NCBI RefSeq assembly: GCF_000240165.1
Contig: NC_017586.1
Coordinates: 5,221,228-5,285,227 of the forward strand
From: Streptantibioticus cattleyicolor NRRL 8057 = DSM 46488
GTDB taxonomy: Bacteria > Actinomycetota > Actinomycetes > Streptomycetales > Streptomycetaceae
Direction of reading: 5' to 3'
DNA length: 64,000 nucleotides
Positions 56,494-64,000 of the stretch are shown here, in pieces. The translations under genes were made by a program, and so were the position numbers. Numbering within the stretch: the first letter of the stretch is position 1; each line of letters begins with the position of its first letter. Below the pieces are notes generated by a model. The model did no database searches and had not been told where the DNA came from. It worked only from the letters and a program-made list of their open reading frames with translations.

Positions 56494-58212
56494 CTACGCC
56501 CGCACGCCGCGCCGGGCGCCTTCGATCAGCCGCTGCGCGGCGCGGTCGGCGAGCGCCATGATGGTCAGCGCCGGGTTGGCGCTGCCCTGGGTCGGCAGCA
56601 CGCTGCCGTCGGTGATGTACAGGTTGGGCACGGCGTGGGTGCGCAGCCAGGGGTCGACCACCCCGTCCTCGGGGCGGGCCGACATCCGGCAGCCGCCGAC
56701 CAGATGGGCGTAGCGCTCGATGGTCATCACCTCCGACGCCCCGGCGGCCCGCAGGATGTCCTCCATCACCCGGGTGGCGGCGGCCATCAACTGGTCGTCG
56801 TTGTCGCAGTGGCTGTGCGAGAACTCGGCGACCGGCAGCCCGTGGCGGTCGGTCTGGTCGGCGAGCGTGACCCGGTTGTCCGCCTGCGGCAGGAACTCGC
56901 AGAGCGCGCCGAGGGTGGCCCAGTGCGTGTAGTCGGCCATGTAGCGGCGCAGGTCGTCGCCCCAGTGGCCCTGCGCGGCGACGTGCTCGGCCCAGGTGAT
57001 CGGCAGCGGCGAGATGGTCTGCACGGAGAAGCCGCGCCGGTACGGCTTGGCCGGATCGGTCTCGTAGAACGCCTCGGTGGAGGTCTCCGGCGGCGGCGCC
57101 TTGTACATGCGCACCGTCTCCTCGAACCGCCCGGCGGTCTGCGGCGCCCCCTGCACCATCACGTACCGGCCCACCTGGTCGTGGTCGTTGCAAAGACCGT
57201 CGGGGAAGCGGGAGTTGGCCGAGTTCAGCAGCAGCCGCGGGGTCTCGATGGAGTATCCGGCCACCGCGACCATCCGGGCCCGCTGGACGTACTCCCGGCC
57301 GTGGTCGATGTAGCGCACCCCGGTGGCGTAGCGGCCCTGCGCGTCGGTCTCGATCGCGGTCACCATGGAGTGCGCCCGGATCTCGGCGCCGTGCGCCAGC
57401 GCGTCGGGGACGTGGGTGATCAGCGGCGACGCCTTGGCGTTGACCTTGCAGCCCTGGAGGCAGAAGCCGCGGTAGATGCAGTGCGGCCGGTTGCCGAACC
57501 GCCCGTTGGTGATGGCCACCGGACCCACCCGGGCCTCGATGCCCAGCTCCGCGCAACCGCGCAGCATGATCTCCCCGTTGCCGCTCACCGGGTGCGGCGC
57601 GTACGGGTACGGGTGCGGGTCGCCCCACGGCCAGTACTGCCCGGCCACCGGCAGCTCGCGCTCCAGCCGCACGTAGTACGGCGCCAGGTCCTCGTAGGCG
57701 ATGGGCCAGTCGGCGCCCACCCCGTCCTGGCTGCGGGTGCGGAAGTCGGAGGGGTGGAAACGCGGCGCGAACCCGGCGAAGTGCACCATCGAACCGCCCA
57801 CGCCGCGGCCGGAGTTGTTGGCCCCCAGCGGTACCGGGTTGGCGCCGCTGATCACCCGAGGCTCGTTCCAGTACAGATGGTGCGAGCCGGCCTCGTCGCT
57901 GACCCAGTCGTGCTCGATGTCCCAGAACGGCCCGGCCTCCAGACAGACCACCCGCCACCCGGCGTGCGCCAGCCGCTGGGTGACGGTGGCGCCGCCCGCC
58001 CCGCAGCCGATCACCACGATGTCGACCTCGTCGTCCGGGTCGAACCGCCGCATCGACTCCAGCAGCCGCCGGTCGAACCGCCGGTCGTCGTCGGGCAGCA
58101 GCCACGCCGAGGCGTTGCGCTCCCGGACGTCCGCCTGCGACCGGGCGGTCTCGCGCAGCGTGTCGACGGCCGGGCGCAGCCACCCGGTCCCGCGGGTCCG
58201 TCCCTGCTTCAC
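56494..58212 (-). CDS. GMC-family FAD oxidoreductase
   Basis: A 572-residue flavoprotein of the glucose-methanol-choline family. The FAD loop is VVIGCGAGGATVTQRLAHAG near residue 60, with LEAGP at the end of the strand. C-terminal active-site segment: HLVGGCRMS near 510, then LYITDGSVLPTQGSANPALTIMALADRAA. CIYRGFCLQGCKVNAKAS is typical of gluconate-dehydrogenase-type large subunits. It probably oxidises a sugar or polyol together with the subunit-3 protein upstream. The GTG at 58212 overlaps that gene's stop by 4 bases (GTGA) and follows GGGAGGA. No signal peptide. Confidence 0.92.
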   Translation of the reverse strand: MKQGRTRGTGWLRPAVDTLRETARSQADVRERNASAWLLPDDDRRFDRRLLESMRRFDPDDEVDIVVIGCGAGGATVTQRLAHAGWRVVCLEAGPFWDIEHDWVSDEAGSHHLYWNEPRVISGANPVPLGANNSGRGVGGSMVHFAGFAPRFHPSDFRTRSQDGVGADWPIAYEDLAPYYVRLERELPVAGQYWPWGDPHPYPYAPHPVSGNGEIMLRGCAELGIEARVGPVAITNGRFGNRPHCIYRGFCLQGCKVNAKASPLITHVPDALAHGAEIRAHSMVTAIETDAQGRYATGVRYIDHGREYVQRARMVAVAGYSIETPRLLLNSANSRFPDGLCNDHDQVGRYVMVQGAPQTAGRFEETVRMYKAPPPETSTEAFYETDPAKPYRRGFSVQTISPLPITWAEHVAAQGHWGDDLRRYMADYTHWATLGALCEFLPQADNRVTLADQTDRHGLPVAEFSHSHCDNDDQLMAAATRVMEDILRAAGASEVMTIERYAHLVGGCRMSARPEDGVVDPWLRTHAVPNLYITDGSVLPTQGSANPALTIMALADRAAQRLIEGARRGVRA

Positions 58213-58808
58213 CGCGGCTCCTCCCACGGCTCGCGTGCCCCCAGGCCCAGCCGCAGATAGCCGCGCGGATAGGCGGGGCCGCCGAAGCCGATCTCGTCCC
58301 AGGCGTGCGGATGCGCGTAGTAGGCCGCGCACAGGTAACGCGTCCACAGCGACCACACATGGCTCGCCGGCATGCCGTACCACTCGTGGGAGCCCAGCTC
58401 CTTGACGTGGGTCAGCAGCCGGTGCTGGTCGCCGTAGCCGATCGCGGCGAAGCCGGTGCCCTCGTGGCGCAGGCGCGCGTCCTCGTCGAGCCCGGCCAGC
58501 GAACGCCGCCAGGCGTCGCCGTCCTCGGGCATGTCCCGGTACCGCCAGCCGTCGATCTGGCCCTCGGCGAGCCGCTGGTCGACCAGTTCCAGCACCGGCA
58601 CCGGGCAGTCGTCGGGCAGGTCCAGCAGGTGGCCGGCGAGCGGGCGGGCCACCGCCACCTCGGGCGGGGTGAAGAACCGGGCGTCCGGCTGGGGGCCGAG
58701 CCGGGCCAGCACCACCCCGGCGGTCACCCGGTCCCAGTGGTCGGCCTGGTCCACCACCGAGCCGCCGCGCGCGGGGCGCCGTCGGCGCCGCGGGATGTCG
58801 TCGGCCAT
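58209..58808 (-). CDS. Gluconate 2-dehydrogenase subunit 3-family protein
   Basis: A 199-residue small subunit. The family pattern is visible: FFTPPEVAVARPLAGHLL near residue 45, VLELVDQRLAEGQIDGW near 72, and a C-terminal WSLWTRYLCAAYYAHPHAWDEIGFGGPAYPRGY region, read in pieces. In homologous dehydrogenases subunit 3 helps assemble or export the flavoprotein; here the basic N-terminus (RRRRRPARGG) lacks a hydrophobic core, so export is doubtful. Coupled to the GMC gene by a 4-base overlap. Confidence 0.88.
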   Translation of the reverse strand: MADDIPRRRRRPARGGSVVDQADHWDRVTAGVVLARLGPQPDARFFTPPEVAVARPLAGHLLDLPDDCPVPVLELVDQRLAEGQIDGWRYRDMPEDGDAWRRSLAGLDEDARLRHEGTGFAAIGYGDQHRLLTHVKELGSHEWYGMPASHVWSLWTRYLCAAYYAHPHAWDEIGFGGPAYPRGYLRLGLGAREPWEEPR

Positions 58809-61609: not shown

Positions 61610-62494
61610 ATGCGTCGTACCCCCGATTCCCACCCGGCCGGCCCCGCCAGGACCCGCAAGCGCCCGGCAGCCGCCACAGCCACCGCCACCGCCGCCCGTC
61701 ACCCCGCCCGGCCGCACCGCGCCCGGCGCACCTCCCACCCGCACGACGACGCCCCCGACACCACCGACGCCTTCCGCCGGATAGCCACCCTGCCGGACGG
61801 CCCGGAACGGGACCGGCTGCGCAAGGAGGTGGTGGCGGCGTGGATACCCATGGCCGAACGCCTCGCCACCCGGTTCCGCAACCGCGGCGAGGCCGTCGAG
61901 GACCTCAAGCAGGTGGCCGCGCTCGGCCTGGTCAAGGCCGTCGACCGGTACGACCCGGAACGCGGCACCGCGTTCGCCAGCTTCGCGGTGCCCACCGTGG
62001 TCGGTGAGGTCAAACGCCACTTCCGCGACCACCTGTGGGGGCTGCACGTACCCCGCCGGGTGCAGGAACTGCGCAACCGGGTCCGTACCGCCCGCAACGA
62101 CCTGACCCAGTCCATCGACGGACGCGGCCCCACCGTCGCCGAGATCGCCGAACACGCCGGGCTCAGCGAGGAGGAGGTGCTCCTCGGCCTGGAGGCGATC
62201 GACAGCTTCTCCACCATGTCGCTCGACGCCGAACTGCCCGGCTCCGACGGCTACACGCTGGTCGACACCCTCGGCCTGCCCGACCCCGGCATGGACGCCG
62301 TGGTCGACCGGGAATCGGTCAAACCCCGGCTGCGGCAACTACCCGAACGCGAACGCACCATCTTGTACCTGCGGTTCTTCGACGACATGACGCAAAGCCA
62401 GATAGCCCGCATCATGGGCATCTCGCAAATGCACGTCTCCCGGCTGATCAACCGAACCTGCGCCCGGCTGCGCGCCGAGATCCTGGCCGAGTGA
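61610..62494 (+). CDS. SigB/SigF/SigG-family RNA polymerase sigma factor
   Basis: A 294-residue group 3 sigma factor. The first 45 residues are basic, proline/alanine-rich and disordered. Region 2 contains MAERLATRFRNRGEAVEDLKQ, the VAALGLVKAVDRYDPERGTAFAS core-binding and -10 contacts, and VPTVVGEVKRHFRDHLW. Region 3 is VPRRVQELRNRVRTARNDL. Region 4 has LPERERTILYLRFFDDMTQS and the helix-turn-helix IARIMGISQMHVSRLINR. The family directs stress and developmental genes from GNNT...GGGTAC promoters and is usually held by an anti-sigma factor; none is beside it. The ATG at 61610 follows GAGG. Candidate regulator of the genes at 49-61 kb. Confidence 0.93.
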   Translation: MRRTPDSHPAGPARTRKRPAAATATATAARHPARPHRARRTSHPHDDAPDTTDAFRRIATLPDGPERDRLRKEVVAAWIPMAERLATRFRNRGEAVEDLKQVAALGLVKAVDRYDPERGTAFASFAVPTVVGEVKRHFRDHLWGLHVPRRVQELRNRVRTARNDLTQSIDGRGPTVAEIAEHAGLSEEEVLLGLEAIDSFSTMSLDAELPGSDGYTLVDTLGLPDPGMDAVVDRESVKPRLRQLPERERTILYLRFFDDMTQSQIARIMGISQMHVSRLINRTCARLRAEILAE

Positions 62495-62539
62495 GAGGCC
62501 CCGCGCCCGTGCCGGGCCCGGCACCACCGGAGGTGGCCG

Positions 62540-63724
62540 ATGCGGTGGACCCCTGGCACCCCGGCCGCCCCCACCGATCCCGGGCTGCCGGTCCCGCCGT
62601 GGCTCGCCGAACGGCTGGCCGGCGCCGCGGGGCGGGCCCGGGCGGTGCCGGTCGGCGGCGCCCGCCTGGTACGTGAGGCGGCGGCCGGCTACTGGGAGCG
62701 GCGCGGACTGCCCACCACCCCGGAACGGGTGCTGCTCGCCCCCGGGCCCGGCCCGCTGCTGCTGGCGCTGCTCGCGGTGGCCGGCGGCGACCTGGTGGTG
62801 GCCCGCCCGCACCCCGCCTGGTACCCCGGGCCGGCCGCGCTGCTGGGCCGCCGGGTCCACCCGGTGTCCGCCCCGGCCGAATGCGGCGGCGTCCCCGACC
62901 CGGTGGCGCTGCTGGAGACGGTGCGCCGGGCCCGCGCCGAGGGCGGCCGGCCCCGGCTGGTGATGCTCACCGTCGCCGACGACCCCACCGGCACCGTCGT
63001 CCCGCCCGAACTGGTGCGCGAGGTGTGCGAGGCGGTCACCGACGCCGGACTGCTCGCGGTCTCCGACGAGACCTACCGCGACCTGCCGCACGACCCGCAC
63101 ACCGTGCTGCTCAGCCCCGCCGAGGCGCTGCACGGCCGCACCCTGGTCCTCACCGACCTCGCGGGCGCGCTGCTGCCGCCCGGCTGGCCCGCCGCCGTGC
63201 TGCGTTTCCCGCTCGAAGGGCCGGCCGCCGCCCTGGCCGAGCCGGTCCGCGCGGCGCTCGCCGCGCAGCGCGCCCACCCGGCCGCCCCGGTCGCCGAAGC
63301 CGCCCGCTACGCCCTGGCGGAACCGGCCACGGTACGGGAGCACACCGCCGCCGCGGCCCGGCTGCACGCCACGGTGGCCCGCGCCGCGCACCGCGTGGTC
63401 ACCGAAGCCGGGGCGCTCTGCCCGCCGCCCGGGGCCGGCTTCCACCTCTACCCCGACCTCGGCGCGCTGCGCCCGGCCCTCGCGCCGCGCGGCGTCACCG
63501 GCGCCGCCGCCCTGGAGACCCGGCTGCCCGGTGCGCACGGCGGCCACCACTTCGGCGACGACCCGGCCGGACTGCGGGTCCGGCTGGACGTCCCCGCGCT
63601 GTACGGCGGTACGGACGGCGAACGCGCCGCCGCGCTGGCCGCCGCCGACCCGCCGCGGCTCCCGCATGTCGCCGAGGCGTTGACCCGGCTCCGCGCAGCC
63701 TTCGCCGAACTGACGACAGGGTGA
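62540..63724 (+). CDS. Aminotransferase class I/II-fold protein without PLP lysine
   Basis: A 394-residue protein with the fold-type I aminotransferase layout: PERVLLAPGPGPLLLALLAV near residue 62, the substrate-loop DDPTGTVVPPELV near 147 (family NPNNPTG), AVSDETYRDL near 178 with the conserved Asp and Tyr, and the carboxylate-binding arginine in LRVRLDVPALYG near 355. At the Schiff-base position the sequence is LVLTDLAGALLPPGWPAAVL instead of SFSK...GWR, and I find no lysine anywhere in the protein. It therefore cannot form the usual internal aldimine. GGAGG lies 6 bases before the ATG, 45 bases after the sigma-factor gene. Confidence 0.85.
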   Translation: MRWTPGTPAAPTDPGLPVPPWLAERLAGAAGRARAVPVGGARLVREAAAGYWERRGLPTTPERVLLAPGPGPLLLALLAVAGGDLVVARPHPAWYPGPAALLGRRVHPVSAPAECGGVPDPVALLETVRRARAEGGRPRLVMLTVADDPTGTVVPPELVREVCEAVTDAGLLAVSDETYRDLPHDPHTVLLSPAEALHGRTLVLTDLAGALLPPGWPAAVLRFPLEGPAAALAEPVRAALAAQRAHPAAPVAEAARYALAEPATVREHTAAAARLHATVARAAHRVVTEAGALCPPPGAGFHLYPDLGALRPALAPRGVTGAAALETRLPGAHGGHHFGDDPAGLRVRLDVPALYGGTDGERAAALAAADPPRLPHVAEALTRLRAAFAELTTG

Positions 63725-63775: not shown

Positions 63776-64000
63776 ATGACCGATCAGGCCGACCCCCGGA
63801 CCGAGCAGGGCGGATACACCACGGCACGGAACCGGCCCCGGCCCCTGGGGGAGCGGCGCCAGTGGCCGAGATCCTTCGCCGGCCGCCTCACCGGCCCGCT
63901 CCCCGGTTTCCTGGAGCTGGCCCAGGCCGGCCGGCCGGTCTTCCGGCCGCGCGCCGACCCCGCCCAGGTCGCCGCCCTGCCGTACGACCCCGCCCCGCTG
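63776..64000 (+). CDS. Unrecognised protein, 3' end cut by window edge
   Basis: The first 75 codons of a gene: TDQADPRTEQGG, a basic segment RPRPLGERRQWPRSFAGRL, then PLPGFLELAQAGRPVFRPRA. TTGGAG lies 5 bases before the ATG (a GTG one codon earlier is possible). No hydrophobic segment so far and no family recognised. Codon use is typical of the window, so it is probably a real gene. Confidence 0.7.
   Translation, partial: MTDQADPRTEQGGYTTARNRPRPLGERRQWPRSFAGRLTGPLPGFLELAQAGRPVFRPRADPAQVAALPYDPAPL

Follow-up and report, generated by a model that had tools for sequence, protein, structure and literature searches.

A lysine-free aminotransferase-fold family of Streptomycetaceae: candidate PLP-independent pseudoenzymes linked to a NAPE-PLD-like hydrolase gene

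What can a protein with the fold of an aminotransferase do when its chain contains no lysine at all? The question is raised by a gene in the window, by which we mean the whole stretch of 64,000 nucleotides analysed here, that lies between a sigma-factor gene and the start of a gene for a NAPE-PLD-like hydrolase (Table 1). A sequence-only reading had described its product as 394 residues free of lysine, and translation of the gene, which is 81% GC, bears out both the length and the composition.

Table 1. Features of the locus, with positions in the window
Feature	Position	Strand	Basis
SigB/F/G-type sigma factor gene; adjacent in the window genome, not a conserved neighbour	61610..62494	+	
Ribosome-binding-site-like stretch with GGAGGTGG, right before the ATG	62525..62537	+	sequence read directly
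Lys-less aminotransferase-fold protein (putative pseudoenzyme), 394 aa	62540..63724	+	translation, Pfam, alignment, tree, predicted structure
Codon of residue 71, Gly here; Lys in 100% of Lys+ relatives (PLP-phosphate loop)	62750..62752	+	
Asp148 codon; replaces the invariant Asn of NPTG	62981..62983	+	family comparison
Asp176 codon; Asp that pairs with the PLP pyridine N in aminotransferases, 100% kept in the Lys- clade	63065..63067	+	
Gly209 codon; replaces the Schiff-base Lys	63164..63166	+	alignment, family comparison
Pro217 codon; replaces the phosphate-binding Arg	63188..63190	+	family comparison
Arg346 codon; substrate-carboxylate Arg position, kept (97%)	63575..63577	+	family comparison
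NAPE-PLD-like metallo-beta-lactamase-fold hydrolase gene, start; 337 aa, ends at 64789 past the window	63776..64000	+	

Fold and cofactor site

Pfam returned Aminotran_1_2 as the sole match to the protein (E=7e-13), and the structure predicted for it, with 42 members of the family in the input alignment, reached a mean AlphaFold pLDDT of 93.8. In Foldseek the prediction matched aspartate and prephenate aminotransferases along almost all of its length (TM 0.77); its best PDB match was the prephenate aminotransferase 6f77 (VIA Z 40.2, 348 residues, 2.5 A), with a Z of 38.8 against the Thermus aspartate aminotransferase (AspAT) 1bjw. As modelled, the protein has a full-length class I/II aminotransferase fold (fold type I). 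It shares with that class (PF00155; 1bjw, 6f77) the complete fold, the pyridine-side Asp176 and the C-terminal Arg346, but is without the Schiff-base Lys, the Asn of NPTG, the phosphate Arg, the Ser-Lys loop and the stacking Trp.

The products of an initial set of 80 Streptomyces/Streptomycetaceae loci, 53-66% identical to the window protein, lacked the Schiff lysine without exception (80/80) and had 0-2 lysines each in total. A wider set of 185 near-full-length homologues comprised 140 members without this lysine (Lys-) and 36 with it (Lys+), the remainder being identical copies; the 36 are 35 family members and one distant outgroup, L182. Upon alignment, the motifs VNGAAK and CSGFAK of the Thermus and Phormidium AspATs fall on LTDLAG of the window protein, placing Gly209 at the position of the Schiff-base lysine. 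This lysine is present in 35 of the 35 Lys+ family relatives and in 0 of the 140 Lys- members, in which the site is Gly in 118 and otherwise Ala, Glu, Ser, Pro or Val, never His. Together with Lys209, the residues Ser70, Lys71, Trp92, Asn148, Tyr179, Arg217 and Tyr302 are found in approximately 100% of Lys+ proteins and are replaced in Lys- proteins, typically by Asp at 148, Trp at 179, Pro at 217 and His at 302; the PLP-contact roles given to these positions are those established for AspAT. The window protein retains Tyr179, which is Trp in most Lys- relatives, and its phosphate loop reads Pro70-Gly71 with Pro217 where Lys+ relatives have Ser (97%), Lys (100%) and Arg (100%). Asp176, Glu177 and Arg346 are unchanged between the two groups, and conservation within the Lys- clade stands at 100% for Asp176 and Glu177, 97% for Asp148 and Arg346, and 91% for His302.

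The sequence-only reading was correct in reporting the loss of the lysine and the persistence of SDETY and of the C-terminal Arg (R346 in LRVRL), but understated the extent of the loss, as the Asn, the phosphate Arg, the Ser-Lys loop, the stacking Trp and mostly the Tyr have been replaced as well. Its view that this cannot be a normal PLP enzyme is supported by the replacement of the Schiff lysine and most PLP contacts across the clade. Because both the Schiff lysine and the phosphate cup are gone, PLP or PMP would not be held, and on the alignment we regard the family as almost certainly PLP-independent. Insertions, often Pro-rich, occur exactly at the old Schiff-lysine loop in L167 and L206, where they are long, and in L187.

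Ancestry and constraint

In a careful maximum-likelihood tree of 61 rows the Lys- proteins form one clade (100/100), which is nested within the Lys+ proteins and has a Lys+ clade as its sister. The Lys- clade spans nine GTDB Streptomycetaceae genera (g1, g6, g7, g8, g9, g12, g13, g16 and g17), and the fetched members from genera g2, g3, g4, g5 and g14 are Lys+. The sequences show that the Schiff Lys, the NPTG Asn, the Tyr/Trp ring contacts and the phosphate cup were lost once, in the Streptomycetaceae, from an ancestor whose PLP site was complete, and that the fold, the pyridine-side Asp and the C-terminal Arg were kept. The earliest-branching members, L234 and L235 of genus g8, have PDDPTGT and Ser/Ala at the lysine site, yet GGWR/SGWR, and since they are without the Lys, Asn and Tyr and still keep the phosphate Arg, the first three were lost before the latter. 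An early-branching genus that preserves the order of cofactor-site loss makes the change from enzyme to pseudoenzyme open to stepwise study. The loss is ancient and fixed in orthologues, with all 140 Lys- members from the nine genera in agreement; these homologues, along with a dN/dS of approximately 0.2, rule out a sequencing error or recent decay. A plasmid homologue from Streptomyces clavuligerus proved to be a Lys+ enzyme.

By the Nei-Gojobori method, the values of which are rough at such GC, the median dN/dS of the pseudoenzyme gene was 0.21 (25 pairs) and 0.18 (15 pairs); the downstream gene and the sigma gene each gave 0.11, and two neighbouring genes 0.17 and 0.23. The gene is under purifying selection, with a constraint like that of its neighbours. 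Within the Lys- clade the phosphate-side and lysine positions are among the more variable (conservation ranks 183-337 of 370) and the ring/carboxylate-side positions among the most conserved (ranks 11-51 of 370); Trp94, Asp148, Thr178 and His302 are conserved cleft residues that are absent from Lys+ proteins. As a set, the active-site positions exceed the remainder of the protein in conservation only to a modest degree (p=0.03). From this pocket argument, which is built on alignment and conservation, we infer a cleft that would no longer hold phosphate yet would still be in use.

The lysine count, drawn from the window and the fetched loci, calls for a simpler reading. Lysine makes up 1.46% of residues in the window, giving approximately 5.7 expected per 394 residues, and other low-lysine proteins are found here, a 669-aa window protein with one and a 305-aa protein approximately 10 kb away with none. 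Lys+ relatives mostly have 2-5 lysines, including the PLP-binding K71 and K209, and Lys- members mostly 0, 1 or 2. Zero lysines are mostly explained by the loss of the PLP site in a low-lysine, GC-rich lineage, and the suggestion of selection against lysine modification was not upheld, as the low count was inherited from the Lys+ relatives.

The Lys+ actinobacterial sisters are PLP enzymes of equal length and approximately 43-46% identity. They differ in having intact PDNPTGT, SDEIYRD and TGLSK-LALGGWR motifs, in their biosynthetic or other settings and in never lying beside the NAPE-PLD-like gene. At L165 the Lys+ gene stands beside a KamA-type radical SAM gene, a VinK-type acyltransferase gene (also seen at L168) and an ACP-sized ORF, and at L161 and L145 beside AMP-ligase genes. 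A setting like that of L165 is known from incednine synthesis, where the beta-glutamate decarboxylase IdnL3 occurs with the aminomutase IdnL4 (PMC11284099), and by gene order such Lys+ sisters may be IdnL3 orthologues. The polyketide-type loci L165, L164, L168 and L166, with genes for a KamA-like aminomutase and a PLP enzyme, look like beta-amino-acid macrolactam starter cassettes.

The downstream hydrolase gene

The downstream protein matches Pfam Lactamase_B_2 (E=1.6e-46) and human NAPE-PLD 4qn9 (E=3.5e-60), and its HxHxDH metal motif is intact, as HNHYDH. Of the 135 Lys- loci that extend far enough, 126 have its gene directly 3' of the pseudoenzyme gene, and it is present at none of the 36 Lys+ loci. 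The two genes overlap by 4 bp (ATGA) in 34 of 70 Streptomyces loci. Across 297 family genomes the hydrolase is confined to the same nine genera as the pseudoenzyme; both genes occur in 167, the pseudoenzyme only in 31 and the hydrolase only in 2, counts in which any family match outside five Lys+ genera was scored as pseudoenzyme (198 holders), so that a few of these may be Lys+ copies. The hydrolase is found without a recognisable pseudoenzyme in at least three genomes (G097, G237 and G252). G097 carries a Lys+ gene elsewhere, and at its locus, as at that of G237 (L214 and L215), no recognisable pseudoenzyme adjoins the NAPE-PLD-like gene.

In most of the hydrolase-less loci examined the flanking VTT/DedA, second Lactamase_B_2 and phosphodiesterase-like genes stay in place, as after a clean deletion, and the pseudoenzyme of such loci has a dN/dS of 0.18 (5 pairs). 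Because 31 genomes keep the pseudoenzyme alone with a like dN/dS, the hydrolase cannot be its sole reason for being kept; the two genes are linked, but the pseudoenzyme has a function beyond serving the hydrolase. An intact pseudoenzyme gene is accompanied at L229:3922-4386 by a partial NAPE-PLD-like remnant, which attests a recent loss of that gene. In the window genome, iron-uptake genes for an imelysin-domain (EfeO-type) protein and a Dyp-peroxidase (EfeB-type) follow the NAPE-PLD-like gene just past the end of the window (L087:10188-12622).

Proposed role and alternatives

We propose that the old active site has been rebuilt into a cleft of Trp94, Asp148, Asp176, Thr178, Trp/Tyr179, His302 and Arg346/Arg348 that would bind a different, non-phosphorylated ligand. 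This ligand may be a metabolite connected with the NAPE-PLD-like hydrolase, either a small amine or a lipid headgroup, and the pseudoenzyme would act as a binding, carrier or regulatory partner of the hydrolase pathway and not as a transaminase. Taken as a whole, a PLP-independent pseudo-aminotransferase that would bind another ligand or a protein and be a partner in the hydrolase pathway, with a probable link to amine/lipid metabolism, is, from the comparative evidence, the best explanation, and we give it a probability of roughly one half. The role itself, that of a partner to the hydrolase in amine/lipid metabolism through binding or regulation, is a tentative working hypothesis that could well be wrong. 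It is more speculative that a single early conversion in the Streptomycetaceae made the fold a PLP-free receptor of, or enzyme for, an amine/lipid-headgroup metabolite, and that it makes up with the hydrolase a pathway or signalling pair for lipid amides absent from the literature searched. The earlier idea of a ligand sensor or regulator persists here insofar as the protein may bind a ligand or regulate, and is given up as regards the sigma factor. A literature search with the terms tried returned no paper on the present family. Antizyme inhibitor is a relative of a PLP enzyme that acts without PLP by binding something else, although it is a separate system with the ornithine decarboxylase fold (fold type III). 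MocR regulators may use an aminotransferase fold for ligand sensing, as may apply to the pseudoenzyme, but they carry a GntR helix-turn-helix and bind PLP, and Pfam finds no helix-turn-helix in the pseudoenzyme.

Retention of the gene even without the hydrolase, and conservation of the polar residues Asp176, Glu177, Asp148 and His302 of the old active site, would also suit a PLP-free enzyme whose cleft (Asp148, Asp176, Glu177, His302, Arg346/348) catalyses a new cofactor-independent reaction; however, no catalytic motif is recognisable and no precedent was found in the literature searched, and we consider this unlikely. A pure protein partner, serving the hydrolase as a subunit or chaperone and binding no ligand itself, would account for the adjacency in 126/135 loci, the ATGA overlap in 34/70 and the shared nine genera, but is rendered decidedly unlikely by the equal constraint that follows clean hydrolase loss in 31 genomes and by pocket positions that stay conserved. 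Fold type I active sites sit at dimer interfaces, an arrangement that would allow the pseudoenzyme to pair, as the inactive subunit, with a Lys-bearing paralogue in a heterodimer. The precedent is LCB1/SPTLC1, the Lys-less subunit of serine palmitoyltransferase and partner of LCB2 (PMC3794620), which is likewise of fold type I, has lost its PLP lysine and is retained under selection. The partner of LCB1, however, is an active Lys+ paralogue, whereas the window genome has no Lys+ family member, its next homologues being 25-32% identical (E 2e-9 or worse), and most clade genomes have one match only, making such a pairing quite improbable.

In ColD-type dehydratases a His stands in place of the Lys, and PMP or PLP might similarly still be used non-covalently with another residue replacing the lysine, as Asp176 and Arg346 are kept and the earliest branch retains the phosphate Arg. 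We judge this highly improbable: site 209 is never His, the phosphate cup (Ser70, Lys71, Arg217) is gone, and L167 and L206 have long insertions in the old lysine loop. Least credible is a regulatory or sensory role toward the neighbouring sigma factor, the suggestion of the sequence-only reading. The 45-bp gap that it gave (62495-62539) is correct and the genes share a strand; a promoter/terminator consensus scan found nothing, including no terminator-like site in the stretch scanned, as is expected for such scans at 74% GC. Of 139 Lys- loci, 69 have a related sigma gene upstream in the same orientation; it is within 1.5 kb in 44, within 300 bp in 2 and within 150 bp in 0, and other genes, commonly that of a secreted-type protein, usually intervene. 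The closest relatives of the window (L175-L177) have no sigma gene within approximately 5 kb, and Pfam detects the aminotransferase domain only. The window alone has the sigma gene directly adjacent; it is the NAPE-PLD-like gene downstream that is conserved as a neighbour.

Automatic annotation would file this family as PLP-dependent enzymes, the name borne by the one annotated Lys+ relative, and database labels that make such proteins B6-dependent are probably wrong. The family is widespread in Streptomyces, the most studied antibiotic-producing genus, and the linked NAPE-PLD-like gene gives a practical way into a lipid-amide pathway that bacteria may possess.

On the upstream side, the secreted-type protein encoded between the sigma and pseudoenzyme genes in most Streptomyces is variable (L024:4386-5027, L022:4565-5725) and without a Pfam match; it has a conserved C-terminal AGEGGAFTxSVPxLAAGG segment and a membrane tail, with low-complexity KQQGDGQS repeats in L022. 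Further upstream in the window (56494-58808), a GMC-type oxidoreductase gene has a 4-bp overlap with a 199-aa gene, resembling a flavin dehydrogenase with its small subunit.
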